From assembly GCA_016283175.1 (NCBI GenBank), contig JAEEMK010000046.1:1-64000 (forward strand): 64,000 nucleotides of DNA, given 5' to 3'. The notes under the pieces are model-generated. The model did no database searches, had not been told where the DNA came from, and worked only from the letters and a program-made list of their open reading frames with translations. Position 1 is the first letter of the stretch; each line of letters begins with the position of its first letter. Both the position numbers and the translations under genes were made by a program. This DNA comes from Bacteroidales bacterium (lineage in GTDB: Bacteria > Bacteroidota > Bacteroidia > Bacteroidales > P3). Below, piece by piece: positions 14,695-60,759 of the stretch.

Positions 14695-14793
14695 GGCATA
14701 TGTACAGTACTTGTACAGTATATGTACAGTATATGTACGCTTCAGAAGCGTACAAATACTGTACATATACTGTACAAGTACTGTACATATGCC
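14695..14793. repeat. Palindromic intergenic element, copy A (49-bp arms, 1-nt centre, 11-bp-phased TGTACAGTA units)
   Basis: GGCATATGTACAGTACTTGTACAGTATATGTACAGTATATGTACGCTTC-A-GAAGCGTACAAATACTGTACATATACTGTACAAGTACTGTACATATGCC; arms complementary with 1 mismatch. Confidence 0.95.
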
Positions 14794-18198: not shown

Positions 18199-21100
18199 TT
18201 ACTTCTTGACGACCTTGCGTACCGTCGTGCCGTTAGGCAGAGTGATACGCAGGGTGTAAGCGCCCTCGCCAAGGTTGGAGATGTCGAATGTATTAGTATT
18301 CTCGAAGGTGGCCACCAAACGACCAACGATGTCGAGAACCTCAACCTTGACCACTTCGTCGGCAGTAACGGTAACGCGACCGCGAGTCGGGTTCGGGTAG
18401 ATGGTAACATCGTCGAGCGAGTTGACAACGTCGATAGCCACAGGAGTGACATTCACGTGCAGGTAGACGGTGCTATCGCAACCGTTGACCGTAGTGCCAT
18501 TGAATACATAGTCGCCGCTAGCGGAGATGCTGTAGCTATTGTAGACATAAGGCAGTTCGGTTTCAAGCAGCGTGATTGTGTCGAAGGTCTCAACGCTGTG
18601 GTTGATGGTCAGGTTCAGAGTGATGGTGCTGTCGCAGCCATTGGAAGCAGTGAGAGTAACCGTCGGCGTGTTGGTGCTCTCGGTGTAGTTCACATTGTCA
18701 ATCCAGATGTAGCTGTCGCAAGCAGCAACCTCATCGATGATGTCATAGCTGTAGTTGACAGTCAAGTTGAGAGTCACAACGCTATCGCAGCCATTTGCAG
18801 CGGTCAGTGTGTAGGTCGGAGTGTTGGTCGAAGCCGTGTAGGTCTGGCCGTCAATCCAAGTGTAGCTGCCGCAAGCAGTCTGGTTGTCGATGCCCGTTGT
18901 GCTGCTGTTGATGGTGAGGTTGAGTGTCACGACACTGTCGCAGCCGAGTGCGTTGGTCAGCGTGTAGGTCGGAGTGTTGGTCGAAGCCGTGTAGGTCTGG
19001 CCGTCAATCCAAGTGTAGCTGTCGCAAGCAACGGCGTTGAATGTGCCGGTTGTAGAGCTATTGATCATCAGGGCGAGAGTAACAACGCTGTCGCAACCGC
19101 TGGCGGCGGTGTAGGTATGCGTGTAGTTACCGCTGGTGGTATAGGTGGTACCATTCCAGATGTAGCTGTCGCAAGCCGAAGCGGCAACCGTCATATTGAT
19201 GGTCGGAGTGATCGTCAAGTTGAGTGTGACGGTGCTGTCGCAACCAGCAACAGTGTTGAAGCTCTGCGTGTAGTTACCTGTGGTGGTGTAGGTAGCACCG
19301 TTCCAAGTGTAGCTGTCGCAAGCTGCAGCATTGATGGTTGTTGTTGCACTGTTGTTGACAACGAGAACCAGGGTGGCAATGCTGTCGCAACCGTTAGCAG
19401 CCGTAGCAGTGTGCGTGTAGGTGCCGCTGGTTGTGTAGGTCTGGCCATTCCAGGTGTAGCTGTCGCAAGCAGTAGCGTTGACAGTGTTGGTGATAGGATT
19501 GTTGATGATGAGCAACAGGTTGACAATACTGTCGCAGCCGTTGGCAGCAGTGAAGGTGCCACTGTAGATGCCGCTGGTCGTGTAGGTCTGACCGTTCCAA
19601 GTGTAGCTGTTGCAAGCTGTCTCGTTGATGGTGCTGGTAATAGCATCATTGATGGTCAGTGCCAAAGTTACAGTACTGTCGCAACCACCAGCAGAAGTGA
19701 AGTTCTGCGTGTAGGTGCCGCTGGTTGTGTAGGCTACATTGTTCCAAGTGTAGCTGCCGCAAGAGGTGGCGGTGATGGTGGTAGTCTGCGGAGTATTGAT
19801 GGTGAGGTTCATCGTCACAACACTGTCGCAGTTGTTGTCAGTCGAGAATGTTTGAGTGTAGCTGCCGCTCTCGGTGTAAGCAGTGCCATTCCAGATGAAG
19901 TAGTTGCAAGCAGCTGCATCGAAGCTGGAAGTAGCGCTGGTGCCAAGAGTGAGGACCAGAGTATCGGTGCTCTCGCAGTTGTTGGCAGCAACATAGTCAA
20001 ATGTGTAGGTACCGCCATCGGTGTAGGTCGTACCGTTCCAAGTGTAGCTGTCGCAAGCAGTAACGTTGTAGAGAGTGCTGGTGCTGTTGTTCACCGTGAG
20101 GTGGAGAGTATCAACACTCGGGCAACCGTTGTTGGCCTCATAGCTATAATAGTAGTCACCGGTCTCGTAGTAGGTCTCACCCATCCAGCTGTACTCGTCG
20201 CAAGCGATGATGGTACGCTGTTTGTTGCTGTTGTAGTTAACAGTCAGGTAGAGGGTGTCGACGCTCGGACAGCCGGCAGCAGAACTATAGTTGTAGTAGT
20301 AGGTGCCGCTGGTAGTGTAGTCGGTGCCGTTCCAAGTGTAGCTGTCGCAAGCAGTAACGGTCTCGCCGTTGTTGCTGTTGTAGTTGACAGTCAGGTGGAG
20401 GGTGTCGACGCTGGCGCAACCTGCTGCGGTGGTGTAGCTATAGGTGTAGTGACCGCTCTCGGTGTAAGTCTCGCCGTTCCAGATGTAGCTGTCGCAAACG
20501 GTCTCGGAGTAGACTGCATTGCTATTGTAGTTGACAGTCAGTCGGAGGGTATCGAGGCTAGCGCAACCGTCGGCGGTGTTGTACGGATAGTAGTATACAC
20601 CAGTCGAAGTGTAGGTCTGGCCGTTCCATTCATAGCTGTCGCAAGCGGTGACGGTCTCCATACTGCTGCTGTTGTAGTTGACAGTCAGGTGGAGGGTGTC
20701 GACGCTGGCGCAAGCATCAGCGGTGTAGTAGCTATAGGTGTAGTCGCCGCTGGTGGTGTAGGTCTGACCGTTCCAGGTGTAGCTGTCGCAAGCAGTAGCT
20801 TCATAAGCAGTGTTGCTATTGTAGTTGACAGTCAGGTGGAGGGTATCGACGCTGGCGCAGCCGTCGGCGTTGTTATAATTATAGGTGTAGTCACCGCTGG
20901 TGGTGTAGACAGTGCCGTTCCAGGTGTAGCTGTCGCAAGCAGTAGCAGCGTAAGCCGTATTGCTATTGTAGTTGACAGTCAGGTGGAGAGTGTCGACGCT
21001 GTTGCAACCCTCGTTGGTGCTATAATCATAGGTGTAGTCGCCACTGGTGGTGTAGACTGTACCGTTCCACTCATAACTGTCGCAAGCAGTAGCGGTGTAA

Positions 21101-24100
21101 GCCGTACTGGTGTTGTTGTTGATAGTCAGGTGGAGAGTGTCGGTGCTAGCGCAGCCGTTCACATCGGTGTAGTCGAAGGTGTAGTCACCGGTAGCATCGT
21201 ATGCGGTGCCATTCCAAGTATAGGTGTCGCAAGCGGTAGCGTTGAAGCCTGTGCTGCTATTGTTGTTGATAGTCAGCTCGAGGACGTCGACGCTGGTGCA
21301 ACCCATATTGTTGGCATATGCAAGCGAGTTGTAAGTACCGCTGGTGGTGAAGTTGTAGGTCTCACCGTCGCCGGCATTCCAAGTGTAGCTGTCGCAAGCA
21401 GTAACCTCGACTGCATCGTTGTAGATGACGTCACCAACGGTGATAGTCAGCTTGGTGGTGCTGTCGCAGCCTGTCAGTACAGAAGGAACTGTGTTGGTGA
21501 AGGTGTGAGTACCAGCTGTGAGCTCGTCGGCAGCGATAACAAAGCCATTGGCGTTGTAATCCTGACCGAGGCATACAGCATCGGTAAGTTCAACTTCAAT
21601 CAACGGATTGACAGTAAGAGTGAAGTGGATAGTGCTGTCGCAGTTGCTGTTGAACTCAGTCGTGATAGCGGTGTCACCGGCAGCGGTGAACTCAATACCA
21701 CGCCAGTTGTACGGCAATGCGTCGGCGCAAATGGTGGCAGTCTCGTAAGCGTGAGGAGCCTCGTTGACAGTCAAGCGCAGGAAGACTACGCTGTCGCACA
21801 TCGTTCTCGGGTTAATGAGAGAGGTCGAAGTCTCGATGCTCTGCTCAAAGACACCGATGATGCTGTCGCCGACAATCCAGGTGTAAGGACCGCAGTTCTC
21901 GACAGTCTGAACAGCATAGGTGGTCTGGTTGTTGATAGTCAGGTGGAGGGTGTCGACGCTCGGGCAGCCATCCTCATTGGTGTAGCTGTAGGTCTTGACT
22001 CCGCTGGTGCTGTAGTCGGTACCGTGCCAGTTGTAGGCGTGGCAAGCGACGACGGTCTCGGCGTTGTTGGTGGTGTAACCAACAGTGAGGTCGAGTTTGC
22101 ACTGAGCGTAGCAACCGTTGGCATCGGTGCTGTCGAATGTGTAGATACCAGTCTCAGTGTAGGTCTGGCCATTGATAGCCCAAGTGTAGGTGTCGCAGAC
22201 AATCTCTGTGATTTCGCTACCATTGTTCTTGTTGATGGTCAGGTAGAGGGTATCGACGCTCGGGCAGCCATTCTCAGCATCATAGCTGTAGTAAGCGGTG
22301 GTGCTTGCAGTGTAGATGCTGTCGTGCCAAGTGTAGCTGTCGCAGGCAACCTTGGTTTCGCCACTGTTGCTGTTGTAGTTGACAGTGAGGAAGAGGCTAT
22401 CAACGCTGGCACAGCCATCAGTAGTATTGTAAGCATAGCTGTAATGGCCAGTGGTGTTGTAGGTGGTACTGTTCCAAGTGTAGCTGTCGCAAGCCGTCAC
22501 CGTGTAGATGGTGTCGCTCTTGTAGTTGACAGTCAAGTGGAGAGTATCAACGCTCGGGCAGCCGTTGGTGGCGGTGTAAGCGCGAGTGTAGTCACCAGAG
22601 GTGGTATAGGTCTGGTTGTTGAGACCCCAAGTGTAGCTGTCGCAAGCCGTAACGTCATAGCCAGTGTTGCTGTTGTACTTGACAGTCAGGTTGAGAGTCA
22701 CAGTACTGTCGCAGCCGTAGCTGGAGCCGTTCGGGAAGAAGCGAGTAGCTGTCGTGGTGCTCTCGGTGAAGAGTGTACCGTTCCATCTCAAGCTGTCGCA
22801 AACGGTGCGGCGCTCGGTGGCGTAGACGACCGGGTGGACAGTGAGTGTCTTGGCATATACCCACTCGTTGTTGGCATCGCCCTTGAAGACGGTATCGGTC
22901 AGCGTGATGGTGGTCACGTGGTCGAAGTCGGTAATCATCGTGGTGAGGTCGAAGGTATTGCTGTGACCACCAAGGATATTGGTGTTATCCCAAGTGTATT
23001 CCTCAGCGGTAGCACAGATATCTTCGGTACCGATGTTGGTGTAGTTGTCAACGAGAGTGATGTGGTAGGTGATAACGCTGTCGCAATAGTGTGTTGTAGC
23101 ACCGAAGTGGAAGGCAGTGTCAACTGTACCAGCCTCAGCACCGCTGAAGTTGATAGAGTAGGCTGCACTGCTGTCGCTGGTGAGGAAGCACTGCTGCTGG
23201 CTCAACAGGAAGCTTACATTCTGCTCGGTGTAGTTGATCTGAGTCAGGGTCAAGTTGAGTACTGCGATGGTGTCGAAGCCGTTGTAGCTGATGACGCCAG
23301 GCAGCGTGTAGCGCGGACGGGCATATACCCATTCGTCGGCGGTAGCATCGTAGTAGAGTGCACCGTCAGGAGCATTGTCGCGATACTCATAAGTGTGACC
23401 GTTGATCCAAGTGAAGTGGTCGCAGACAACCTGATTCTCCATACCGATAGCGTTGGTACCGACCAAGAGATGCAGCAGCGTGGTGCTGTCGCAACCGGCG
23501 ACGTTCAAGCCACTGGGAACCGTGAATATGGTGTCGAAGTATTCGCCACCGTCGCGGTCAGCGGTATAGAGGATGTTGTCGTAGACATAGAAACCATTGT
23601 TCGAGACAATCTCATCGTTACCAGTGGTAGCGTGGTTGATGGTCAGGTAGAGCATATCGGTGCTCGGGCAACCATCACCATTGATGTAGTTGCTGGTGTA
23701 GATGCCGCTTTCAGTCTTGGTAATGGTGTTGCCATTGTTAATCCAAGTGTAGCTGTCGCATTCTGCCACGGTGAAGGTCTCGGCCGAGCTCTGGTGCAGA
23801 GTCAGCTTCAAGGTATCGACACTCGGGCAGTTCTGACCATTGACATACTCGTGGGTGATTGTCATCGGGTAGGTTGCGTTAGTATCATACATATAGTTCA
23901 TACCAGAGGTGGTCCACACATAGTTGTCGCAAGCGTCGGTGACGGTTGTGATATTGTGGGTAGCGTGGTTGATCGTCAGGTTGAGAGTTACAACGCTGTC
24001 GCAACCAGCCATATTCTGGATGGTGTGCTGTGCTGTGTAGTTGTTGATGGTGTAGAGGATACCGTCAATCCAACGCAGGCTGTCGCAAGCGACGACCTCG

Positions 24101-27100
24101 TCGATGCCAGTGTTGCTGGTGTTGACAGTGAGTTTCAGCGTATCAACAGCCTCGCAAGTGTTGGCATCAGTGCGAGTGAAGGTATGGATACCACTGGTGG
24201 TATAGGTCATACCGTCGCCGTCAGTCCACGTGAAGGTGTTGCATACAACAGTGTCAAGAACAACAGGCATATTCTTGTTGATGGTCAGATGCAGCGTCAC
24301 AGTGCTGTCGCAATTAGCGGCGTTGGTGAACACGTGAGTAGCTGCCTCTGTGCTGGCAGTGTAAGTTGTACCGTACCAGACAAAGCTGTCGCAAGCCACA
24401 GCGGTGGTGTCACCGGTGGTGGCATTGTTGATGGTCAGGTGCAGTGTCACTGTGCTGTCGCAACCAGCGGCATTGGTGAACACGTGTGTCAGGCTGTCGC
24501 TGCTGCCGGTGAGGGCAGTGTGCTCGTACCAGTCGAAGCTTCCACAAGCCACAGCGGTGGTGTCACCGGTGGTGCTGTTCTTGATGGTCAGGTTCAGCGT
24601 AACGGTGCTGTCGCAGCCGTTGACATCGGTGAACACGTGAGTCAAGTTGTTGCTGCTGGTCGTGAGGCCAGTGTGCTCATACCAGTCGAAGCTGTCGCAA
24701 GCCACAGCGGTGGTGTCGCCGGTAACGGCAGCAGCCTGGTTGACGACCAAAGTCTGCAACCAGCCATTGGTAGCAACAGTATCGAAGATATAGGTCGTAT
24801 CGGTAACCGTGGTAACATAGGTATGAGTACCCCAATCAACCGAAGTCTGGTTAGCGCAGATGTCAATTCTAGCGGTATCGTAGTTGTAGATGAGGTTGAT
24901 GTTGTAGGTCACCAAGCTGTCGCAGTAGAGGTCGCTCGGGAAGTGAACCTCGCGCTGTACGGTCTCAGTGTAACCTATGTAGCCGGCAGCCTTCTGTGCA
25001 CTGAAGTCAAAGACACTGTCGCCAAGGGCGAGGGTGATGTTGCTCAGCAGGAAGGTAGTGTCGGCAGTGCTGGTGGTGCGCTCGGTGAGGACAAGCTGCA
25101 GGATGAAGGTGCTGTCGATAGCATTATTGTTGGTAATGGTAACGATAGGTGCTTCATAGATGTATGTACCTGTGCTGGTCTTGTAGAGAGCTCCATTGTT
25201 GGCAGCACTTTCAGTAGCATCAATGAACTCATAGGTAACGTTGTTACGCGGCCAAGTGTATTCCTGGCAAGCTACGACGACCTCGGTCTTGTTGCGGGTG
25301 GTACCGACAAGGAAGTTGAAGGTAATCACGCTGTCGCAACCGGCGACGTTGGTGATGGTAGCTGTCAGAGGACCGAAAGCGGTCGGAGTGTTGGCCTGGA
25401 ACAATGTGTCGTAAGTCACATCGTTGCCCACAAAGTTGAACTGGTAGAAACCTTCGCTGCTGACTATCGTAGTGTCATAGCTGTTGCTGTGGTTGATAGT
25501 CAGGTAGAGGGTGTCGACGCTCGGGCAGTTGTTGGCAGCGTTGTAAGCGTTGTAGTAGGTACCGCTTACAGTCGTGGTCATCGTGTCACCGTTGTTAATC
25601 CAAGTGTAGGTGTTGCAAGCGGCGACGGTCTCAGCCCTGTTGCTGTTGTAGTTGACAGTCAGGTTGAGGGTCACGATGCTGTCGCAAAGGGCCACGTTCT
25701 GGATAGTGTCGACATAGCTGCCGGTGGCAGTGTAGGTCTCATTGTTAATTGCCCAGGTATAGGTGTCGCAAACAGTAACTGCAAAGGTGCTGTCGGTTCT
25801 GTGACGTACAGTCAGGTTGAGGGTGATGGTGCTGTCGCAGCCGGCGAAGCTCTGGTAGACAACGCTGTCCACAGTGCTCTCAGTGTAGGTCACACCATTC
25901 TCAGTCCAAGTGTAGCTGTCGCAGACATTCTCGGTAACTGTTGCGTTACCGGCAGTGCCGATGGTCAGGCGGAGGGTATCCACGCTGGCGCAGCCGTTGG
26001 CAGCGTTGTAAGCGTAGGTGTACTCACCTGTAGCAGTGTAAGCAGAATCGTGCCAAGTGTAGCTGTCGCAGGCAATAGCGGTGTCAGCGCTGTTGGTGTT
26101 GTAGTTGACAGTCAGGTAGAGAGTGTCGACGCTCGGGCAGTTCTCTGCAGTGAGATAATTGCTGTAGTACGTGCCGCTCTCGGTCTTGGTAACGGTATTG
26201 CCGTTGTTGACCCAGGTGTAAGTGTCGCAAGCTGTGACAGTCTCGCCGCTGTTAGTGTTGTTGAACACGGTCAGCTTCAAGGTGTCGGCAGCAGGACAGT
26301 TGTTGGTGTCAGTGTAATCATAGACATAAACACCGCTCACATTATATGTCAAGTTGTCGCGATCCCAAGTGTAGGTGTCGCAAGCTGTGTCGACAAATAC
26401 GGTGCGGATGGGCTGGTTGATGGTGTAGCTGACAATGGTGTCGTTACCCATCGGGTCGTTGTTGCTGTAGGTGTTGCTTATCGGGCCGGTGATAGTGAAG
26501 CCATATTCGGTCTCGTAAGGCAGTTCACTGTAGCAAAGAACGATCGGGTTCAGCTTGGTGAAGAACATATGTATGGTACTGTCGCAGCCGTTCTTGTCGG
26601 TAAGCGTGTAGAAAGCCTCACCAGTGGCGGTGTACTCAACACCGTCAATCCAAGTGTAAGGATCGTTGGTAGCAACATACACATCGGTCAGCGGGTTCTG
26701 GTTGACATAGAAGTTGGTGACAACAACTGTGTCGGGAGCATCGTTCGATGCAGCGGCCAGAAGCTCGGTGAAGCTCTTGTCCTCACGATAGACCTCACCG
26801 TCAGGTCCCTTGTAGCTGGTGCAGACAGTGGTGTCATAGACAATGTAGGCAGTGTCTATCAGAGTCAGGTTCATCGTTACGACGCTGTCGCAACCATACT
26901 GGTTAACACCAATGACTGCGTTGTCAGTGTAGACACCTGCGTTGTCGTAGGTCACACCATTCCAAGTGTAGCTGTAAAGGACAGTGGTGTCAAATACGCT
27001 GTTGGTAGTGGGATTGACCGTGTAGTTGACGGTGACCGTGCGAGCGCATCCGTTCTCGGTGGCCCAGTTGGCAACAGCGCTGCCATTGTAGACTACACCG

Positions 27101-30100
27101 TTGAGGGCTGTAGCGAAGGTCAGGTCAACAGTCTCGGTAGTATTATCCTCGTTGACGTAGGTGTAGTGGTAAGCACTGTCGGCCCCAAGTTCGAACTCTT
27201 TCTCGCAAAGGATAATATCCTTTTCCTCAGTCGAGGTCGGGAAGACCGTGAGGGTGAGGATGTCGGTCGAGTCGCAGCCATTGGCATTGGCAACGCCGGT
27301 AGCCAGGCGATAGGTCTCAGTACCGGCAACGGTCGGAGTAATCGTAGTGGCACCAAAGGTGTAGGTCTCACCAAGGCAAACCTGGTCGTCAACATAGTTG
27401 TAAGTCTGAGCCTTGGCACCGGTCAGACGCAGCACCTCGGTACGGTCGCAGCCGTTCTCGGCCTGGGCGAAGGTAAGCGAGATGTTGGTGTCGGCACCGG
27501 TGAAGATGTCATTGATAACAGCAATAACGTTGCTATCGGCATCATACCAAGTGTACGGCAGACACTTGTTGCGTTCGATTTTGGTGTGGTACTCGCTGGT
27601 GTTGATAGTCACATTGTAGCGGCTTACAACATAGCGACCGTTGCCGATGGAAGTCTTCAGCTGATAAGCACCGCTCTGGTTGATCTGGCATTCCACGAGG
27701 CTGCCGTCGCAAGCAACGGTGTCGAGGATCAAGATGTCGCAGACATTGGTGTCGGCCCAAGCCAAAGTATCGGCAGCCAGGTTGAACACGAGGTTGAGAA
27801 TCTGGGTGCTGTCGCAGCCGTACTGGTTGGTGACACCATTCAGCAGATAGCGGACATTACCGTCAGTCTCGTTCATATCGTATTCAACACCGTTGATCCA
27901 GGTATAGGTCGGCGTGTTGCACCAACGGATATCGTCAACACCGGTGTTGGCATAGTTCACAGTGAGGTTGAGGGTCACGAGGCTGTCGCAACCGGCAACG
28001 TTCTCAATGGTGTACTGTGCTGTGGTGTTGTTCTCGGTATAGGTGTTGCCGTCAATCCAGACAAGCTGGTCGCAGACGGTCTGTACATCGGTACCGGTGG
28101 TCGAGGCACGGAGAGTGAGGTTCATCGTGACCACACTGTCGCAACCGTCGATGGTCTGCAGAGTCTTGTCGTAGCTGCCGGCGGCAGTGTATTCGACCTC
28201 GTTCCAGGTGTAGCTGTCGCAATCGTTGGCCTCGAAGCTGCTAACCTTCTTGGGGTTGACAGTGAGGTAGAGGTTGTACAGCACTGGGCAGACATCGGTG
28301 GTGGTATCGGTGTAGTTCAGCGAGGTGACATTGAGGTCAGCGGTGTGGCTGGTCTGATACTGACCCTGGCCGAAGGTGAATTCATCGCCCTCGCAGTAGG
28401 TGCGGTAAGCGTTGGCAACACCGGTGGCGGTGACATCGAGATACAGGTGGACAGTACTGTCGCAACCGTAACCGATGGTCCAGGTCTGGTTATAATTGCC
28501 ACCTTGGACATCGCTCAAAGTCTGAGCGCCCCAAGTGACGGGGAGCATAGCCTCACATACAGATAATGTATCATTAATATTATAAGCAGGACGCACGGTG
28601 ACGGTTGCCGAGGTAAACTCGTTGACGCAGCCGTTGGCGTCGGTGACTGTCAGGTTGTAACGACCAGTGTTGGCAGGCACGAAGCTTACGGCAGAAGTGG
28701 TGGCGCCATTCAGGCTCGTCCAGTTGTAGTTGTAACCGTCAACCTCGGTAGCCGTGAGAGTCAGGCTGTCGTAACGGCAGATCTCGTTGGCCGAAGGAGT
28801 GATAGTGACAACAGGCAGCTGGTTGACCGTAATGGTGGCCGAAGCCGTGGTGGTGCAAGCGCTGGCGTTGGGAGTGGTAGCGGTGACAGTATACTCTGTC
28901 GTGGTGGTCGGGCTTACAGTGATGCTGTTGCCAGTCTCGTTGTTGCTCCAGAGGAAGGTGCAGCCAGTGTTGTTGGTGTCGGTAACCGTGAGGGTGGTAG
29001 AACCACCGACGCAAATAGCCTCTTCAGTTACAGCAATAGTAAGTGCGGCAACCGGAGTGGTGGTGACATCCAGTGTGACAGGCAAGCTGGGGCAGTTGTA
29101 AGTCGGGTCGTAAGCGGTAACGGCATAGCTGGCGTTCTCGTGCGGATTGACGGTGCGGACAGCAGCGGTGCTGTTGTCTTCCCACTTGAAGTTCGAACCT
29201 TCGATGGTGGCGCGGGCCGTCATCACCAGATCGGCGTTGTCGCAGAAAGCGTCGATGGTACCGTTGGTACGCTCATTGTTGACATAGATGTAAGCTGTCG
29301 GGGCGGGACGCACCTGCAGCGTCAGCGTCGTGGTACTGTCGGCACCGTTGACGGTCTGGGCTGTGCGGGTGTAGACGCCCGTAGCGGTCAGTGTGTCGCC
29401 ATAGAACACATAGCTCTCGCGCTGGCAGAGTTCCTGGCGTGCGGTAAGAGTATAGGTAGGATGGATAGTCAGCTGCAGGGTGTGGTACACAGAGTCGCAG
29501 CCACCTACGTTCTTCTCCATAAACTCTTCGCTCCAGGTCTTGTCGGACTGGTTGGCGACAGTGACATTGTTGGTATAGGTACGGCCGTTGACCCAAGTGA
29601 AGGCGGTGTTGGTGTCGACCACCCAGTCGCGCTGCGGAGCGGCAACGGGGCACTCGCACTGTGCCAACAGTTTGAAGCCAAGATACTGGTCGGCATTGTC
29701 GACATCAGTGGTGAAGACAATGGTCATAGCACCCTTGGTAGACCAGTCGTAGCTGTCGGTCTTGACATCGATGCTCTCGTCATAACCGGTACCTGTGTAG
29801 AGGACATTGCCAGTAGTTCCGACACCCTCATAGATGGTCAGGTAGTCGAAGCCATATTCGCAGTCCATCTTGCCGGTCAGGTGGAGAATCTTACCAGCCT
29901 CGCCAGGATAGATGGTCTGAACCATATTGACATTGCCTGCATAGGTACCCTGATGGTTGACGGTGTCAGCCATATAGAATACAACGCAGTTGTTTGTCGG
30001 CTCATCGGTGGGCATATAGACTATAGGCTCGCGGAGCTTCACCTGGACATTCTTGACATAGAAGTCGGCCCAGGTGGTACCGGTCTGCAGACCACGGATG

Positions 30101-33100
30101 GCAATGTAGCGGCCAGTGGTGTTGTTGATATCGGCAAACGAGATATTGAATGTATTGTACTCAGGACTGTTGAGAGTAATGGTCTGTACAGCGGTAAAGG
30201 TAGTGGTATCCGTACCGTTGGCAAGATAACCAACCTGGAAGCTGCGTTCGGTTGTGCCGCTGTAGTTGGCAGCCTCAAGGCTCATCTCGATGGTGTCGAG
30301 AGCGAAGCCCATCTCAGGCAGGATAACCATACTCTTGGTGCTGTAGATATTAATTCTGTTGTTAGCTGCATTGACAGATGCAGTACCGCCAGCCTTGGTC
30401 CAGCAAGCGGGCAGGCCAGAGACCGAGAAGGTCTGTACGAGCGGCATATCGGCATACTGCCAAGGAGCGCACGAGGTGCTGAAGTTGGCAGCAGTGCTCC
30501 ATAGGCTCCAGTCTTCGTCCGAGCAGAGCGAACGGACATAGACCTGATAAGCGGTGGAGTGTTTCAGACCATTGACAACAAAGTTGGTGTTCTGAGTGGC
30601 GATAACGTGTATACCGTCGATGTTCTGGTTGAAGCCAGGCTCGCCGACGGCAACCTCCCACTGGGTGGCACCGACAGGCATTGTGTTCTCTGTCCAGCTC
30701 AAGGTCACGCTGTTGGCAGAAGCCACAGGAGCACCTAAGGTAGGAGCCACACAGGTAGCCATCGTGGTGAAGTTGGCAACATTGCTCCAGTCGGCGGTGT
30801 CTCCGTTGTAGTTGGCGGCAGCAACGCAGATGCTGCGAACCTTCCACTGATAAGCCGTTTCGGGGAGCAGGTTGGCAAGAGCCAGAGCAGGAGCACCGGT
30901 CACCTCAACGCTGACGCCCTCGTTGTCGAGGTCGGCAGCAGCAGGAGCGTAGCGCACCTCCCAAGCGGCGGGAGTAACAAGACAGTTATCAGTCCAGGTC
31001 AGGTTGGCAGTCTTGGCATATACATTCTCCGAGGTGAGGTTGGTAGCCACACGGCAAGTAGGAACAGGCATAACCTCGATGTCGTCGACATACCAATACC
31101 ACGAGGTAGAGCCAGCATTGTGACGCATAGCCATACGGGCACCGACAGGAGCAGCATCCATATACACAGTCTTCTCTTCGTGTGTATTAGATGTCCAGTC
31201 ATTGTGGTTATAAGTGGCAATAGCTACAAAAGTAGAAGCGTCTTCAGCGTCGGTCACATAACCAACAGAAAAAGATCCACAACTGGTATTTGAATAACTT
31301 TCAGGACGAGTCCAGAAGTTCAGTTGCAATGTGTTGGCTTCATTCTCAGTTTCTGGCAGAAGCACCAAATTGCTCAACGAACCGCTGAATCTGAGATAAT
31401 AGCTACTGTTGTGTGCATTACTAGTACTGCTTAAGACAGCTACAGTACCCGTACCTACCTTGGTCCAACAATCAGGCAGGTTATTGGTTGCTGTGCTTTC
31501 AAAATCTTCAGTGTAGTGATTGTACTTGGTAACAGCTATAGGAGCACACGGAGTAGTGAAAGTATAGACAATGCTCCAGTCGCTATAACCGTCAGCACCG
31601 CAGTTGGCGCGGACATAGAAGTCGTAGGTTGTCTGCTCATCGAGGGCCGTTGTGGTGAACACGTGGTCGGTCAGAGTAGTGACGGTTGCAGTGGTAACAT
31701 CCAGCGGGCTTTCGCCGAACATCACATCCCAGCTTCCCTCGGTAGCGTTGGTGCTGTTCTGTGTCCAATCGATAGTAGCGGCATTGGATGACAATGCTGT
31801 GGTGTGGACATTGCTCGGTTTGACGCAAGGAGGCAGCAAGCTGACCTTGATATCATCGACATAGGCATAAGTGGAGTTGGTAGTACCGTCAGCCGGTGCC
31901 AAGATGGCCAAGCGGCCTGGAGTACCTGTGAAGTTGTTCAGCGGAATCTCGAAAGTCGTCCACGGATACGGTGAAGCAACATATTCGGGCTGTACTTGCT
32001 GAATCAACTGGAATGTGCTGATATCATTGGGATCAGTCATCACACCAATCTGAATTTTGCCATAATTGACACTCGATGAAGTCCTCAAAACCTTCAACGA
32101 AATCTGCAAATCGGTCAAAGAATTAGTGAAGGTCGGCAACACTGCATAACTATAATTGGTATTGTATCCATACATATATAGGCAGTAGCTGTTGGTCGGA
32201 GTCAACGGGTTGCTATTGTTGGCAACATAAGAAGTACTTGGATAGGGATAAGCTGTTGTGGAGCTGGTGTGTTTCTCCCAGCAAACGTTAATCTGATGAG
32301 CGCTTCCGCTTCCTGTGGCATCCTCAAATCCATAGATGTAAGGCTCGGCCATCGTCACAGTGATAGGATTACACAGGGTGGTGAAGGTGAAGGCATTACT
32401 CCATTCGCTCTCACCGAAGGAACCGCAGTCAACGCCTACATATACATAATATAATGTAGCATCGTTAAGATTTGTGAGGTTAATGCTCTGTGACAAAACC
32501 GTAGTGGCAGTTCCCTCGGTAGCCGGGTCGATAGCAGTGGTGCTATATTTAACCTTCCAAGCTACCGGGGTATTAGTGTTCTGGTCAACCCAACTAACAG
32601 TAGCACTGGTAGGAGTTACATTGGTAGCTGTCATTGTGCTTACCTGAGGAGCAAAGCAGTTGGGGATAACCTTTACTCGGATATTGTCGATACCGCAGTA
32701 GGTCTGAGAGTAACTACTAGTACTGGTTCCATTGTGGGTTCCCGAGTAGCGAAAGGCCAGACGGGCATCAGCAGGAGCCGAAGCAGCCAATGTGGCAAGC
32801 GACATATCGGTAATATGCTGTAAAGTAGTAGTAGCATTCCAGGACTGCATCGTCTGGAACGTGGCAAAATCATTGTCTGTAATGTAACCAAGTTCAAGGA
32901 CCGTTGCCACACCCGATGCACTATAAGTGTTGCCCATCTTATAGTCGAAAGAGACCATAACGTTGTTCAGCGGCTGGTCGAACAGCGGCATTACAGCAAT
33001 TTTAGTGTCACCACGGTTGTTGTGGTAATTAATATAAGTAGAACTTGTCACAGCAGATCCTATCACATAGGCTGGCAGGAAGAGGTATGGGTTGTTGGCC

Positions 33101-36100
33101 ACTAAACAAGCATATGAAGAGTTAGAAGTATATTGAACCACACCACCATAGTAACTGGAGCTTGTGGTAGCAGCAGTGTACGCGCCATTGGAATAGTAGT
33201 TCCAACAGCTAGGTGCTACAGAAGGACCATTATAAGGATAGGTGGGCAAACCCGTGTATCCACTAAAGTCCTCGGCATACGGCAGAGCCTGAGTGGCACC
33301 GCAGGGAGTACGGAAGGTTGCATTAGTCCACTGTAAGGTGTCGTCAACACCGCAGATGGAGCGGATACCGATAGAATAGCTGGTATTGTCAAGCAGACCT
33401 GAAGGTGTATAGCTGGCAGAATTGACAATTGCATAGGTATAACTGTTGCTACCTGCAGGGGCCAAGCGTACCTGCCACTGAGTGGCGTTGCCAGCCGTCC
33501 AGGTAACAGTACCAGCGCTGTATGCTATATCTGCAGGAGCGTTGCAACTCATTCTCGTCACAGAAATATTGTCGATAGTGGCAGGAGGATTGGTACCGCT
33601 GGAATTATCGTTGCGCCACACAAAGACAAGCTTGTAGTTGCCCGGAGTGGAGATATTGACAGTACGGCTTACCGAATTCCACGAACTGCTCAAATTGAGT
33701 TTGCTGCCACCATCTACGGCAATCCAGGTCGAAGGAGTTGCCGTGGTACTCAAACCTGAAGGCAACGAGGTACCAGGGGTAAGGGTGACAGATTCAGGAA
33801 CCAAAGCAACGCGTAAATAGTCGTAGGTAGACTCACCATAGCACTTCCAGTCATAGGAAATGTTATAGTCGGCAGCTATGGTCATAGGCAGTGTTACATA
33901 TGCATAGACAACTGAACTGGAGGACTTGTTATAGTCAGCCGAAGTACCACTATTGTTAGAAATATAGATACTATGATTGCCGCCAGTGGTATTGTTGTCG
34001 GCAGTACCCAAATACCATTTGTTGGTCAAGGAACCGTTGGCAAAAACAAAACCGTTAACACCATTCTCAAAGTCGCATAAGTAAGGTATTGCAACAGGAA
34101 CGGTATACGACAGCGGAGCAACCCAATCAAGGGTGTCGCCTTCACCGCAGATGGAGCGGACAGAAACATTATAGGTAGTACCTGCACCACCGGTGAGAGG
34201 CAGAGTGTAAGATGCCGTAGTCACAACATTCGATACCGTGTAAACGTCACTACCATCTTCTGCCCAACGAACCTGCCACTGGGTGGCATTGCCGGGAGTC
34301 CAAGTAAGAACCTTGCTGGGGCTAATAGCCAAGTCGGTAGGTCTGACACAAGCGGGAGCTTTTCCGATAACCACTTGGTCTATACCAACGCCATAGCCAT
34401 AGCTGTCGGTCATCTCAAAGGCTATCTGATAAGTTGACGAAGTATTGGGAAGAGGAATGGATTCCTCTAATGTCCAAGTAGCAACTGCATCAGTAAACAC
34501 CTGAGAAGGAATCAGAGTCCAGGCTGCAGTCGGCGAGGTACGATAGTATACTCTCAGCTCGTCGATATCACCGCCCCAAGCACGCGAAATATGCCAATAT
34601 GAGAGAACATAGTCGCCTGTAGCGAAATTGAATGTCGGGCTGATAAGTTTTGTGACATTACCACTAGTAGTATGGGTAATCTTTGCGTTCTGGCTACCAA
34701 TTGCAGCACCAGTAGTGGCACTATAATCACCTGTTCCTGTACTCCACGAAGCATCACCTTCAATAGACCAGCAGGTAATGCTTTCGCTATTTTCCTCGAA
34801 GGTCTCGGTGAAAGATGCAGTCTGTGTTACGGCAATAGCCATACACGGAGTAGTGAAACTATAAGTATTCCAATCTAACGTATCACCTTCACCGCAAATA
34901 GAACGGATACCGATGGTGTAAGAGGTATTGGACATCCAAGACGATGAACTATAGCTAGGAGTGGACACGTAAGCATAGGTGTAGTTGTCGCTACCATCCT
35001 GAGCCCAGCGAACCTGCCACTGGGTAGTGTTGCCAGCAGTCCAAACCACAGCGCCATTCACGTCAAGGGTAACATTGGTAGGCATACTGCAGTTGAGTTT
35101 CTTGACCGACACATTGTCGATTGCTGCAGGAGGATTGGTTCCGTCACTACCGTCATTGCGCCACACGAAAACCAACTTGTAATCACCTGTAGTGGCAATA
35201 GTTGCAGTCATTGCAACCGATGTCCAACTGCTATTAACGTTAAGTTGGGCACCGTTATCAAGTGCAATCCAGCCTGAAGGCGTACCTGTGGTGCTGATGC
35301 CAGAATAGAGAGTACCTGCGGTAAACTCGGCGGAAGCCGGAGCAAGGAAGACACGCAAATAATCGTATCCGCTCTCACCATAACATTTCCAGTCATATTT
35401 CACAACATAGTCACCGGTCGTTGCAAACGGTAACGTTGCATAAGCATACGAAACCGAAGCATCATAGTTATCGTAGTCATTGCTTACACCTTCATCGCTG
35501 GAGATATACATAGCATTGCTACCACCATTGTTAGCGGCAGAACCGACATACCAGCCATTGCCACTATTGGCGAAAGTAAAACCACCAGCTCCATTTTCAA
35601 AGTTGTTGCTATAGGGCAACGATAATGGAGTAACGAAGCTGACAGGACCAACCCAATCAAGCTGCTCGCTGCCGCAGATGGCGCGAACATAGGCTTCATA
35701 GCCAGTAGCACTTTCAAATGTGGAAATAACACCACCATTTGTTATGGTCACCGGTGTTGCGGCATCGGGGTCAAAGTTAGGAGCACCATAAACCAACTGA
35801 TAGGCGGTAGAGGTGTTGTGGCTGTCGGTGAAGGTGAACTTGACAGAAGTCAAGCCCGTCACTTGAGCCTGCAGATTGCTGATGGGGAAGCAGGTAGGCT
35901 GCGGCTTGACGGTAATCTCGTCAATGAAGAAGTCCCAATAGCTGCTGCTCTGGCTCCATCTCAAGGCGAGGCGCGCTCCGGAGGGGATGGCGGCATAGTC
36001 AGTGAGATAGAAGGAGAGATTCTGAGGAGTTGTGGTGAATCCCTCGAGAGTGTCGAGGACCACAAAGCCAGACATATTGTTGATATTGGTGAAATAGCCA

Positions 36101-37332
36101 AGGGTGAGAGTACCGTTGGTGCTGCTTTCACGATAGCCGTTGATGTCGAGCTCGTAGTTGTTGAGGTTGGCATTGAACTTGGGGAGAACGGCGAAAACAT
36201 TGTTGGCATAATAATCATTGCTTTCGTCGCCGGCGCGCATTCTCAAAATGTCGCCATCGAGCCAAACGGTGTTGGCGGCATCGGGATTGCTGACCAATAC
36301 ATCCCAGCACTCAGGCACTGTGGTGAAGTCCTGCACCATAGGCAGAGCCTCGTAGCCGCAGCCTGTCGAGAATTTCTCGTCGGCAACGGCGCGCCAGGCG
36401 CTCCAGCTGCCGCTGGTGGCACAATAGGCGCGGATGTAGGCATAGTAGGTGGTGCGCTGAGGCAGGTTGTTGAGAGTGTAGGTGCTACCAGTCAGATTGT
36501 CAAGAAGCGTGCCTTCGGTCATAGGAGCGAAGTCGGCACCTTCTTTGTACTTGATCTGGTACTTGGAACCGTTGCCGGTCCAGTTGAAGATGACGTTGAA
36601 GTCGCCGGGTACGGCACCAAAGCTGTTGGGCTTGGCGCACTCGGGTTGAGTGAAGGTGTAGCAGAGGCCCCGGTTGTTGTCCACATTGTAGTAGGGACAC
36701 ACAGTGGGCGAGAGAGTGCGCGCCGCGGTAAGCGACGTGTAGGTCGGGACGATGGTGTCCCAGCGGTTGTTGATGGTTGCGATGCAGTATACGTCAGTCG
36801 CGGACGACTGCATACCTGCAAAGACCTGTGCCGTTGTGCTGAGCGTCATCGGACCATAGTTGAACTTGATGGTACCGGTGTTGGTAAGCACGAGCTGGAA
36901 ACTGACGATGTTGTTTCCAATCTTGAGCTTACGCCACTCGACGGTCACCTTGTTGGTCTCCACCTTGGTGTAGATGGTGTTGGCGCCAACGTTGGTAAAG
37001 CCGCTTGTGGTGCTCAACGGCGCAAGCACGATGCCTGTCATTGTGGCGTCACCAGTGGTGACGTAGCCGTTGGCCGACACATAGAGCGTGGCACCACGCC
37101 CGATGGAGGTCTGGCCATACTGCATAGCAAACGGCATCGTGATGGTCGTGTAACCATTCGACACATCGGCAGCGGACCAGGCGGTACCGCCATTGCCGAC
37201 AATGGAGCTGTAGGCAACCGTATCGGCGGCGAAGTCATACTCCGACACCTTGGCCACCTGGCCCCACGTTATTCCCGGCAGCAGCATAGCCGCCAGAAGG
37301 AATAACTTCAAAAAGTAATTTTTTACTTTCAT
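18199..37332 (-). CDS. Giant (6377 aa) T9SS-exported modular adhesin-like surface protein: signal peptide, N-terminal Fn3/choice-of-anchor-J-like modules, CUB-like module, Ig-like modules, about 60 CDSYTW repeats, T9SS type A sorting domain
   Basis: MKVKNYFLKLFLLAAMLLPGITWGQ signal peptide; repeated TACDSYTWNGTTYTTSGxYxxxxxxxxGCDSVxTLxLTVN; C-terminus VTIYPNPTRGRVTVTADEVVKVEVLDIVGRLVATFENTNTFDISNLGEGAYTLRITLPNGTTVRKVVKK. Confidence 0.92.
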   Translation of the reverse strand: MKVKNYFLKLFLLAAMLLPGITWGQVAKVSEYDFAADTVAYSSIVGNGGTAWSAADVSNGYTTITMPFAMQYGQTSIGRGATLYVSANGYVTTGDATMTGIVLAPLSTTSGFTNVGANTIYTKVETNKVTVEWRKLKIGNNIVSFQLVLTNTGTIKFNYGPMTLSTTAQVFAGMQSSATDVYCIATINNRWDTIVPTYTSLTAARTLSPTVCPYYNVDNNRGLCYTFTQPECAKPNSFGAVPGDFNVIFNWTGNGSKYQIKYKEGADFAPMTEGTLLDNLTGSTYTLNNLPQRTTYYAYIRAYCATSGSWSAWRAVADEKFSTGCGYEALPMVQDFTTVPECWDVLVSNPDAANTVWLDGDILRMRAGDESNDYYANNVFAVLPKFNANLNNYELDINGYRESSTNGTLTLGYFTNINNMSGFVVLDTLEGFTTTPQNLSFYLTDYAAIPSGARLALRWSQSSSYWDFFIDEITVKPQPTCFPISNLQAQVTGLTSVKFTFTDSHNTSTAYQLVYGAPNFDPDAATPVTITNGGVISTFESATGYEAYVRAICGSEQLDWVGPVSFVTPLSLPYSNNFENGAGGFTFANSGNGWYVGSAANNGGSNAMYISSDEGVSNDYDNYDASVSYAYATLPFATTGDYVVKYDWKCYGESGYDYLRVFLAPASAEFTAGTLYSGISTTGTPSGWIALDNGAQLNVNSSWTSVAMTATIATTGDYKLVFVWRNDGSDGTNPPAAIDNVSVKKLNCSMPTNVTLDVNGAVVWTAGNTTQWQVRWAQDGSDNYTYAYVSTPSYSSSSWMSNTSYTIGIRSICGEGDTLDWNTYSFTTPCMAIAVTQTASFTETFEENSESITCWSIEGDASWSTGTGDYSATTGAAIGSQNAKITHTTSGNVTKLISPTFNFATGDYVLSYWHISRAWGGDIDELRVYYRTSPTAAWTLIPSQVFTDAVATWTLEESIPLPNTSSTYQIAFEMTDSYGYGVGIDQVVIGKAPACVRPTDLAISPSKVLTWTPGNATQWQVRWAEDGSDVYTVSNVVTTASYTLPLTGGAGTTYNVSVRSICGEGDTLDWVAPLSYTVPVAIPYLCDFENGVNGFVFANGSLTNKWYLGTADNNTTGGNHSIYISNNSGTSADYNKSSSSVVYAYVTLPMTIAADYNISYDWKCYGESTYDYLRVALVPESVTLTPGTSLPSGLSTTATPSTWIAVDGGSKLNLSSSWNSVSRTVNISTPGNYKLVFVWRNDNSSGTNPPATIDNISVTRMSCNAPADIAYSAGTVTWTAGNATQWQVRLAPAGSNSYTYAIVNSASYTPSGLLDNTSYSIGIRSICGVDDTLQWTNATFRTPCGATQALPYAEDFSGYTGLPTYPYNGPSVAPSCWNYYSNGAYTAATTSSSYYGGVVQYTSNSSYACLVANNPYLFLPAYVIGSAVTSSTYINYHNNRGDTKIAVMPLFDQPLNNVMVSFDYKMGNTYSASGVATVLELGYITDNDFATFQTMQSWNATTTLQHITDMSLATLAASAPADARLAFRYSGTHNGTSTSSYSQTYCGIDNIRVKVIPNCFAPQVSTMTATNVTPTSATVSWVDQNTNTPVAWKVKYSTTAIDPATEGTATTVLSQSINLTNLNDATLYYVYVGVDCGSFGESEWSNAFTFTTLCNPITVTMAEPYIYGFEDATGSGSAHQINVCWEKHTSSTTAYPYPSTSYVANNSNPLTPTNSYCLYMYGYNTNYSYAVLPTFTNSLTDLQISLKVLRTSSSVNYGKIQIGVMTDPNDISTFQLIQQVQPEYVASPYPWTTFEIPLNNFTGTPGRLAILAPADGTTNSTYAYVDDIKVSLLPPCVKPSNVHTTALSSNAATIDWTQNSTNATEGSWDVMFGESPLDVTTATVTTLTDHVFTTTALDEQTTYDFYVRANCGADGYSDWSIVYTFTTPCAPIAVTKYNHYTEDFESTATNNLPDCWTKVGTGTVAVLSSTSNAHNSSYYLRFSGSLSNLVLLPETENEANTLQLNFWTRPESYSNTSCGSFSVGYVTDAEDASTFVAIATYNHNDWTSNTHEEKTVYMDAAPVGARMAMRHNAGSTSWYWYVDDIEVMPVPTCRVATNLTSENVYAKTANLTWTDNCLVTPAAWEVRYAPAAADLDNEGVSVEVTGAPALALANLLPETAYQWKVRSICVAAANYNGDTADWSNVANFTTMATCVAPTLGAPVASANSVTLSWTENTMPVGATQWEVAVGEPGFNQNIDGIHVIATQNTNFVVNGLKHSTAYQVYVRSLCSDEDWSLWSTAANFSTSCAPWQYADMPLVQTFSVSGLPACWTKAGGTASVNAANNRINIYSTKSMVILPEMGFALDTIEMSLEAANYSGTTERSFQVGYLANGTDTTTFTAVQTITLNSPEYNTFNISFADINNTTGRYIAIRGLQTGTTWADFYVKNVQVKLREPIVYMPTDEPTNNCVVFYMADTVNHQGTYAGNVNMVQTIYPGEAGKILHLTGKMDCEYGFDYLTIYEGVGTTGNVLYTGTGYDESIDVKTDSYDWSTKGAMTIVFTTDVDNADQYLGFKLLAQCECPVAAPQRDWVVDTNTAFTWVNGRTYTNNVTVANQSDKTWSEEFMEKNVGGCDSVYHTLQLTIHPTYTLTARQELCQRESYVFYGDTLTATGVYTRTAQTVNGADSTTTLTLQVRPAPTAYIYVNNERTNGTIDAFCDNADLVMTARATIEGSNFKWEDNSTAAVRTVNPHENASYAVTAYDPTYNCPSLPVTLDVTTTPVAALTIAVTEEAICVGGSTTLTVTDTNNTGCTFLWSNNETGNSITVSPTTTTEYTVTATTPNASACTTTASATITVNQLPVVTITPSANEICRYDSLTLTATEVDGYNYNWTSLNGATTSAVSFVPANTGRYNLTVTDANGCVNEFTSATVTVRPAYNINDTLSVCEAMLPVTWGAQTLSDVQGGNYNQTWTIGYGCDSTVHLYLDVTATGVANAYRTYCEGDEFTFGQGQYQTSHTADLNVTSLNYTDTTTDVCPVLYNLYLTVNPKKVSSFEANDCDSYTWNEVEYTAAGSYDKTLQTIDGCDSVVTMNLTLRASTTGTDVQTVCDQLVWIDGNTYTENNTTAQYTIENVAGCDSLVTLNLTVNYANTGVDDIRWCNTPTYTWINGVEYDMNETDGNVRYLLNGVTNQYGCDSTQILNLVFNLAADTLAWADTNVCDILILDTVACDGSLVECQINQSGAYQLKTSIGNGRYVVSRYNVTINTSEYHTKIERNKCLPYTWYDADSNVIAVINDIFTGADTNISLTFAQAENGCDRTEVLRLTGAKAQTYNYVDDQVCLGETYTFGATTITPTVAGTETYRLATGVANANGCDSTDILTLTVFPTSTEEKDIILCEKEFELGADSAYHYTYVNEDNTTETVDLTFATALNGVVYNGSAVANWATENGCARTVTVNYTVNPTTNSVFDTTVLYSYTWNGVTYDNAGVYTDNAVIGVNQYGCDSVVTMNLTLIDTAYIVYDTTVCTSYKGPDGEVYREDKSFTELLAAASNDAPDTVVVTNFYVNQNPLTDVYVATNDPYTWIDGVEYTATGEAFYTLTDKNGCDSTIHMFFTKLNPIVLCYSELPYETEYGFTITGPISNTYSNNDPMGNDTIVSYTINQPIRTVFVDTACDTYTWDRDNLTYNVSGVYVYDYTDTNNCPAADTLKLTVFNNTNSGETVTACDTYTWVNNGNTVTKTESGTYYSNYLTAENCPSVDTLYLTVNYNTNSADTAIACDSYTWHDSAYTATGEYTYAYNAANGCASVDTLRLTIGTAGNATVTENVCDSYTWTENGVTYTESTVDSVVYQSFAGCDSTITLNLTVRHRTDSTFAVTVCDTYTWAINNETYTATGSYVDTIQNVALCDSIVTLNLTVNYNSNRAETVAACNTYTWINNGDTMTTTVSGTYYNAYNAANNCPSVDTLYLTINHSNSYDTTIVSSEGFYQFNFVGNDVTYDTLFQANTPTAFGPLTATITNVAGCDSVITFNFLVGTTRNKTEVVVACQEYTWPRNNVTYEFIDATESAANNGALYKTSTGTYIYEAPIVTITNNNAIDSTFILQLVLTERTTSTADTTFLLSNITLALGDSVFDFSAQKAAGYIGYTETVQREVHFPSDLYCDSLVTYNINLIYNYDTARIDICANQTSVDWGTHTYVTTVTDTTYIFDTVATNGWLQTLVVNQAAAVTGDTTAVACDSFDWYEHTGLTTSSNNLTHVFTDVNGCDSTVTLNLTIKNSTTGDTTAVACGSFDWYEHTALTGSSDSLTHVFTNAAGCDSTVTLHLTINNATTGDTTAVACDSFVWYGTTYTASTEAATHVFTNAANCDSTVTLHLTINKNMPVVLDTVVCNTFTWTDGDGMTYTTSGIHTFTRTDANTCEAVDTLKLTVNTSNTGIDEVVACDSLRWIDGILYTINNYTAQHTIQNMAGCDSVVTLNLTINHATHNITTVTDACDNYVWTTSGMNYMYDTNATYPMTITHEYVNGQNCPSVDTLKLTLHQSSAETFTVAECDSYTWINNGNTITKTESGIYTSNYINGDGCPSTDMLYLTINHATTGNDEIVSNNGFYVYDNILYTADRDGGEYFDTIFTVPSGLNVAGCDSTTLLHLLVGTNAIGMENQVVCDHFTWINGHTYEYRDNAPDGALYYDATADEWVYARPRYTLPGVISYNGFDTIAVLNLTLTQINYTEQNVSFLLSQQQCFLTSDSSAAYSINFSGAEAGTVDTAFHFGATTHYCDSVITYHITLVDNYTNIGTEDICATAEEYTWDNTNILGGHSNTFDLTTMITDFDHVTTITLTDTVFKGDANNEWVYAKTLTVHPVVYATERRTVCDSLRWNGTLFTESTTTATRFFPNGSSYGCDSTVTLNLTVKYNSNTGYDVTACDSYTWGLNNQTYTTSGDYTRAYTATNGCPSVDTLHLTVNYKSDTIYTVTACDSYTWNSTTYNTTGHYSYAYNTTDGCASVDSLFLTVNYNSNSGETKVACDSYTWHDSIYTASTTAYYSYDAENGCPSVDTLYLTINKNNGSEITEIVCDTYTWAINGQTYTETGIYTFDSTDANGCYAQCKLDLTVGYTTNNAETVVACHAYNWHGTDYSTSGVKTYSYTNEDGCPSVDTLHLTINNQTTYAVQTVENCGPYTWIVGDSIIGVFEQSIETSTSLINPRTMCDSVVFLRLTVNEAPHAYETATICADALPYNWRGIEFTAAGDTAITTEFNSNCDSTIHFTLTVNPLIEVELTDAVCLGQDYNANGFVIAADELTAGTHTFTNTVPSVLTGCDSTTKLTITVGDVIYNDAVEVTACDSYTWNAGDGETYNFTTSGTYNSLAYANNMGCTSVDVLELTINNNSSTGFNATACDTYTWNGTAYDATGDYTFDYTDVNGCASTDTLHLTINNNTSTAYTATACDSYEWNGTVYTTSGDYTYDYSTNEGCNSVDTLHLTVNYNSNTAYAATACDSYTWNGTVYTTSGDYTYNYNNADGCASVDTLHLTVNYNSNTAYEATACDSYTWNGQTYTTSGDYTYSYYTADACASVDTLHLTVNYNSSSMETVTACDSYEWNGQTYTSTGVYYYPYNTADGCASLDTLRLTVNYNSNAVYSETVCDSYIWNGETYTESGHYTYSYTTAAGCASVDTLHLTVNYNSNNGETVTACDSYTWNGTDYTTSGTYYYNYSSAAGCPSVDTLYLTVNYNSNKQRTIIACDEYSWMGETYYETGDYYYSYEANNGCPSVDTLHLTVNNSTSTLYNVTACDSYTWNGTTYTDGGTYTFDYVAANNCESTDTLVLTLGTSATSSFDAAACNYFIWNGTAYTESGSYTQTFSTDNNCDSVVTMNLTINTPQTTTITATSCGSYTWNNVAYTTSGTYTQNFTSAGGCDSTVTLALTINDAITSTINETACNSYTWNGQTYTTSGIYSGTFTAANGCDSIVNLLLIINNPITNTVNATACDSYTWNGQTYTTSGTYTHTATAANGCDSIATLVLVVNNSATTTINAAACDSYTWNGATYTTTGNYTQSFNTVAGCDSTVTLNLTITPTINMTVAASACDSYIWNGTTYTTSGNYTHTYTAASGCDSVVTLALMINSSTTGTFNAVACDSYTWIDGQTYTASTNTPTYTLTNALGCDSVVTLNLTINSSTTGIDNQTACGSYTWIDGQTYTASTNTPTYTLTAANGCDSVVTLNLTVNYSYDIIDEVAACDSYIWIDNVNYTESTNTPTVTLTASNGCDSTITLNLTINHSVETFDTITLLETELPYVYNSYSISASGDYVFNGTTVNGCDSTVYLHVNVTPVAIDVVNSLDDVTIYPNPTRGRVTVTADEVVKVEVLDIVGRLVATFENTNTFDISNLGEGAYTLRITLPNGTTVRKVVKK
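18460..29640 (-). repeat. Tandem approx. 40-51-aa (about 120-153-bp) repeats within the giant gene, most homogeneous at 18.6-21.4 kb
   Basis: Recurring GTGTAGCTGTCGCAAGC (ACDSYTW) and CTGTCGCAACC (GCDS) motifs on the + strand; about 60 repeats counted by eye in the translation, with a few Ig-like modules interspersed near 28.6-29.1 kb. Confidence 0.9.
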
Positions 37333-37786: not shown

Positions 37787-37874
37787 GGCATATGTACAGT
37801 ATTTGTACAGTATATGTACAGTATTTGTACGCTTCAGAAGCGTACAAATACTGTACATATACTGTACATATGCC
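37787..37874. repeat. Palindromic intergenic element, copy B (49-bp left arm, 38-bp right arm lacking exactly one 11-bp unit)
   Basis: GGCATATGTACAGTATTTGTACAGTATATGTACAGTATTTGTACGCTTC-A-GAAGCGTACAAATACTGTACATATACTGTACATATGCC. Confidence 0.95.
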
Positions 37875-60239: not shown

Positions 60240-60380
60240 AGCATATCGTTTTTTGTGACCTTACGTCGGGGAAAAGCATCATCCCGGACATCAATCAACT
60301 GATTACTTGAAAATTAAGCAGCTCCACGTTTCAAAATGCACCTTGATGTCCTTTGACTGTGCAAAGCATATACCAACACT

Positions 60381-60479
60381 GGCACTTGTACAGTACTTGT
60401 ACAGTATATGTACAGTATATGTACGCTTCTAAAGCGTACATATACTGTACAAGTACTGTACATATACTGTACATATGCC
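60381..60479. repeat. Palindromic intergenic element, copy C (99 bp, 11-bp-phased TGTACAGTA units)
   Basis: GGCACTTGTACAGTACTTGTACAGTATATGTACAGTATATGTACGCTTCTAAAGCGTACATATACTGTACAAGTACTGTACATATACTGTACATATGCC. Confidence 0.95.
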
Positions 60480-60759
60480 AGGGAAAGTGTATCGAAAAGA
60501 ACGTTTAGAGCATAAAAAAATGGATATGAAACATTATAATTGACGAAACATCGTAACGTCGAAAAAAAACCGTCTGCTTCACCACAGCATAGCACACACT
60601 GTTTTTTAGTTTTATTTTCAACGGAAAAGACAAAACCGAAAAAAAATTCAGATATCCAAAAAAAGTATCAACCAGCACTTTACAGCCTCAGATAGGGTTT
60701 TCCCAGAAAAAACCGGAAAATTAGGTTGCCTGTTCGGGTTTTACTTGTGAATGTGTCGG

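Follow-up and report, generated by a model that had tools for sequence, protein, structure and literature searches.

The palindrome at 37787-37874 of the window (the whole 64,000-nucleotide stretch of Bacteroidales DNA analysed here) has arms of unequal length, which raises the question of whether its number of repeat units varies or whether it is an aberrant copy of a repeat whose number is fixed. Read directly, it begins with GGCATA and three TGTACAGTANN units, continues through TGTACGCTTC-A-GAAGCGTACA, and closes with a further two units followed by TATGCC. This bears out the sequence-only reading in its description of a 49-bp left arm and a 38-bp right arm, differing by exactly one 11-bp unit (3+2), and in its placement of this copy (copy B) upstream of a giant gene: the start of a 6377-aa ORF (37332) is ~455 bp away. 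Copy B also lies 3′ of an S30AE-family gene. The features in the window are as follows.

37787..37874, no strand: copy B, 3+2 units
37793..37825, plus strand: left arm of copy B, three 11-bp units
37826..37846, no strand: core of copy B, TGTACGCTTCAGAAGCGTACA, the innermost unit of both arms
37847..37868, minus strand: right arm of copy B, two 11-bp units
14695..14793, no strand: copy A, 3+3 units
60368..60492, no strand: copy C with its flanks, 3+3 units

Since the core supplies the innermost unit on each side, a full arm has four units, three plus the core half. Spacer pairing suggests that the unit absent from copy B is the outermost right one. The TGTACAGTA sequence occurs 17 times in the window, where 0.55 occurrences are expected from shuffles, and as RNA copy B folds at -53.3 kcal/mol, where shuffles give -20.0 (z -11). 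An Rfam search of the window gave no family match at the gathering score. The 6377-aa ORF itself (window 18199-37332, minus strand) encodes fibronectin type III domains and a C-terminal Por secretion tail.

The core was found at 95 places in the source genome (G000), allowing three mismatches. Among the 88 copies examined there, 84 were complete. The unit number was 3+3 in 77 of the 84, so that it is close to fixed, and the proposal that copy B marks a variable-number locus is mostly wrong. The companion proposal, that change comes in quanta of one unit, is supported: five complete copies (copy B included) are one unit short and one is a unit long, in either arm, and outliers of 105 and 140 bp are found for end spacing in genome G109. 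The remaining complete copy has a 2-bp insertion in the left arm. The one-unit changes could plausibly have arisen by slippage or excision. The short arm of copy B might instead be an assembly error, as the genome was assembled from short-read metagenomic data and contigs break within the element, six of the copies examined being cut by contig ends; we consider this highly improbable, because the one-unit deviation recurs in six independent copies in either arm and a single read can hold 88 bp.

Arms match better within a copy (mean 1.15 mismatches in G000) than between copies (1.78), and spacers covary across arms, the outermost position agreeing in 63 of 79 copies against 33.8 in shuffles. 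In genome G025 the arms of every copy differ at ~9 positions and all units keep TGTAC; the motif is thus kept where pairing is not. Unit positions T1, G2, T3 and C5 are near invariant in G000, G025 and G109, while positions 6-7 vary. At two loci of G000 (L147 and L150), GGCATA and TATGCC enclose two direct units; these shortened forms look as if they were palindromes with the middle deleted. A second repeat, CACAAGCTCC.GTGGAGCGCGTGGAG...GCCCGGT, often adjoins the palindrome, sometimes in tandem; it is in the flanks of ~14 G000 copies and is represented at L150, ~2990-3250.

The exact TGTACAGTA unit pair was found in 4 of 99 genomes searched, G000 counted, and most genomes of the same genus are without it. 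Those genomes have palindromes on the same plan, with the 11-bp internal period, ~four units per arm and a common end motif, but built from other units (TGTCCGCTT, TGTCCAGTT, TGTACAATA). G109 has 45 such palindromes in 880 kb, mostly of the TGTACAATA, TGTCCGCTT and TGTCCAGTT types. The end motif ACCAAC.C.GGTCGTTGT.C has 149 matches in G109, where the motifs are usually paired at a span of 116-117 bp (apart from the outliers above), and 175 in G045; forward matches outnumber reverse ones in both (95 to 54 and 115 to 60, respectively). Similar arrays are found in Prevotellaceae UBA2744, but without the GCTTCAGAAGC core. A survey of arrays by period in a same-genus sample gave 44 at 11 bp, against 0-2 at 10, 12 and 13 bp, and 12 at 9 bp; palindrome arms make up most of the 44. 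Same-genus genomes also contain 11-bp tandem arrays that are not mirrored and are built from other units (L273, L286, L287, L320 and L321). A viral search turned up two contigs that share short direct arrays, possibly by chance.

Filled sites can hold different unit families in different genomes. In the close species G045 and G109, with 92% identity over a single 3-kb locus, this was seen at two sites, a small number. At one (G045 C3:34703, G109 C3:25783) the flanks align at 89.5% over 3 kb and the arrays align without gaps, with TGTCCAGTT units in one and the TGTCCGATT type in the other, and with six paired double changes. At the other (G045 C12:31298, G109 C4:45), where homology is seen in the right flanks, the arrays again belong to different families. 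A third site has the element in G045 and is without it in G109, although the intergenic DNA aligns poorly there. The interval between the ompA and epimerase genes is ~320 bp longer in G000 than in G043 and G100, both of which have no element there; the boundaries of this empty site are not sharp because identity is only ~75%.

All placed copies lie between genes (79 of 79 in G000 and 20 of 20 in G109), and their gene context is as predicted by intergenic length; these counts are approximate, since genes were called with a simple purpose-made caller. A promoter or terminator role, judged by gene orientation, was considered and rejected, the excess in divergent regions being accounted for by intergenic length.

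The palindrome is therefore dispersed, fixed in architecture and intergenic, and differs in unit family between genomes. We think it probably a MITE-like short non-coding dispersed element, a near-perfect palindrome with four phased 11-bp units per arm and a conserved end motif. It has the terminal inverted repeats, small size, lack of coding capacity and many copies by which MITEs are recognized; counting against this assignment, no target-site duplication was found at the G000 copies. It also counts against it that no separated ends enclosing a gene were found in the 880 kb of G109, and that no mobilizer was found; the same 880 kb gave no parent transposon with matching ends. Movement or copying of the element would depend on a trans-acting protein that binds the units once per helical turn; arrays at existing sites may be overwritten by copies of another family, through gene conversion or replacement, and a single unit would occasionally be lost (as in copy B) or gained as a by-product. 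A bolder version, which we hold only tentatively and rate as somewhat unlikely, is that palindromic elements with a fixed number of sites form a class spanning the genus, and that their 11-bp unit is exchanged at existing positions, one family after another, perhaps in step with the specificity of a putative binding protein.

The constant 11-bp phase, the fixed number of sites and the conserved unit motif would also suit arrays of binding sites for a host regulator or partition-like protein that are maintained because they are functional and have not spread as a mobile element, and the retention of TGTAC in every unit of G025 despite the differing arms favours such a role. Copies are placed by intergenic length and not by promoters, however, and their numbers differ strongly between genomes, so we regard this explanation as unlikely. 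Mobilization as REP elements by a RAYT-type Y1 transposase has still less to recommend it and is very unlikely: the copies are palindromic, intergenic and number ~100, and several of these genomes carry Y1 genes, but the arms are much longer than those of REPs, no Y1 gene was found in G042 and G043 (both incomplete genomes), and the TGTACAGTA unit was in none of twelve Y1 loci inspected, a weak test for genomes with other units. Judged by that unit, none of the twelve had a RAYT gene flanked by the palindrome, and a RAYT/IS200 link was dropped as a candidate, Y1 genes being present with no TGTACAGTA units nearby.

Known repeats offer partial parallels to a MITE-like element. REPs are likewise intergenic palindromes in high copy, but are 20-40 bp long with a GTAG or CGTC tag (PMC3733652), whereas our palindrome is ~117-121 bp and, judged by the TGTACAGTA unit at the twelve Y1 loci inspected, no RAYT was found flanked by it. 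The enterobacterial ERIC/IRU (127 bp) and YPAL (168 bp) are similar in size and also short, palindromic, non-coding, dispersed and mostly intergenic; mirrored 11-bp unit arrays are not described for them in the part of the source consulted (PMC2229807), and a further difference is that no target-site duplication was found for the palindrome of this genome. BrickBuilt of Porphyromonas gingivalis (19 copies) shares a Bacteroidales host, strictly intergenic placement and a tandem repeat within a MITE, but its 23-nt repeats are direct rather than mirrored (PMC4596501). Our literature search found no earlier description of this palindromic repeat family.

The ~95 near-identical palindromes of fixed size, together with the versions in relatives, seem to be small mobile DNA repeats that form a family. 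If so, close species would provide many natural replicates of change in repeat sequence at existing sites with the architecture kept, and the family would point to a putative DNA-binding or mobilizing protein in gut Bacteroidales.
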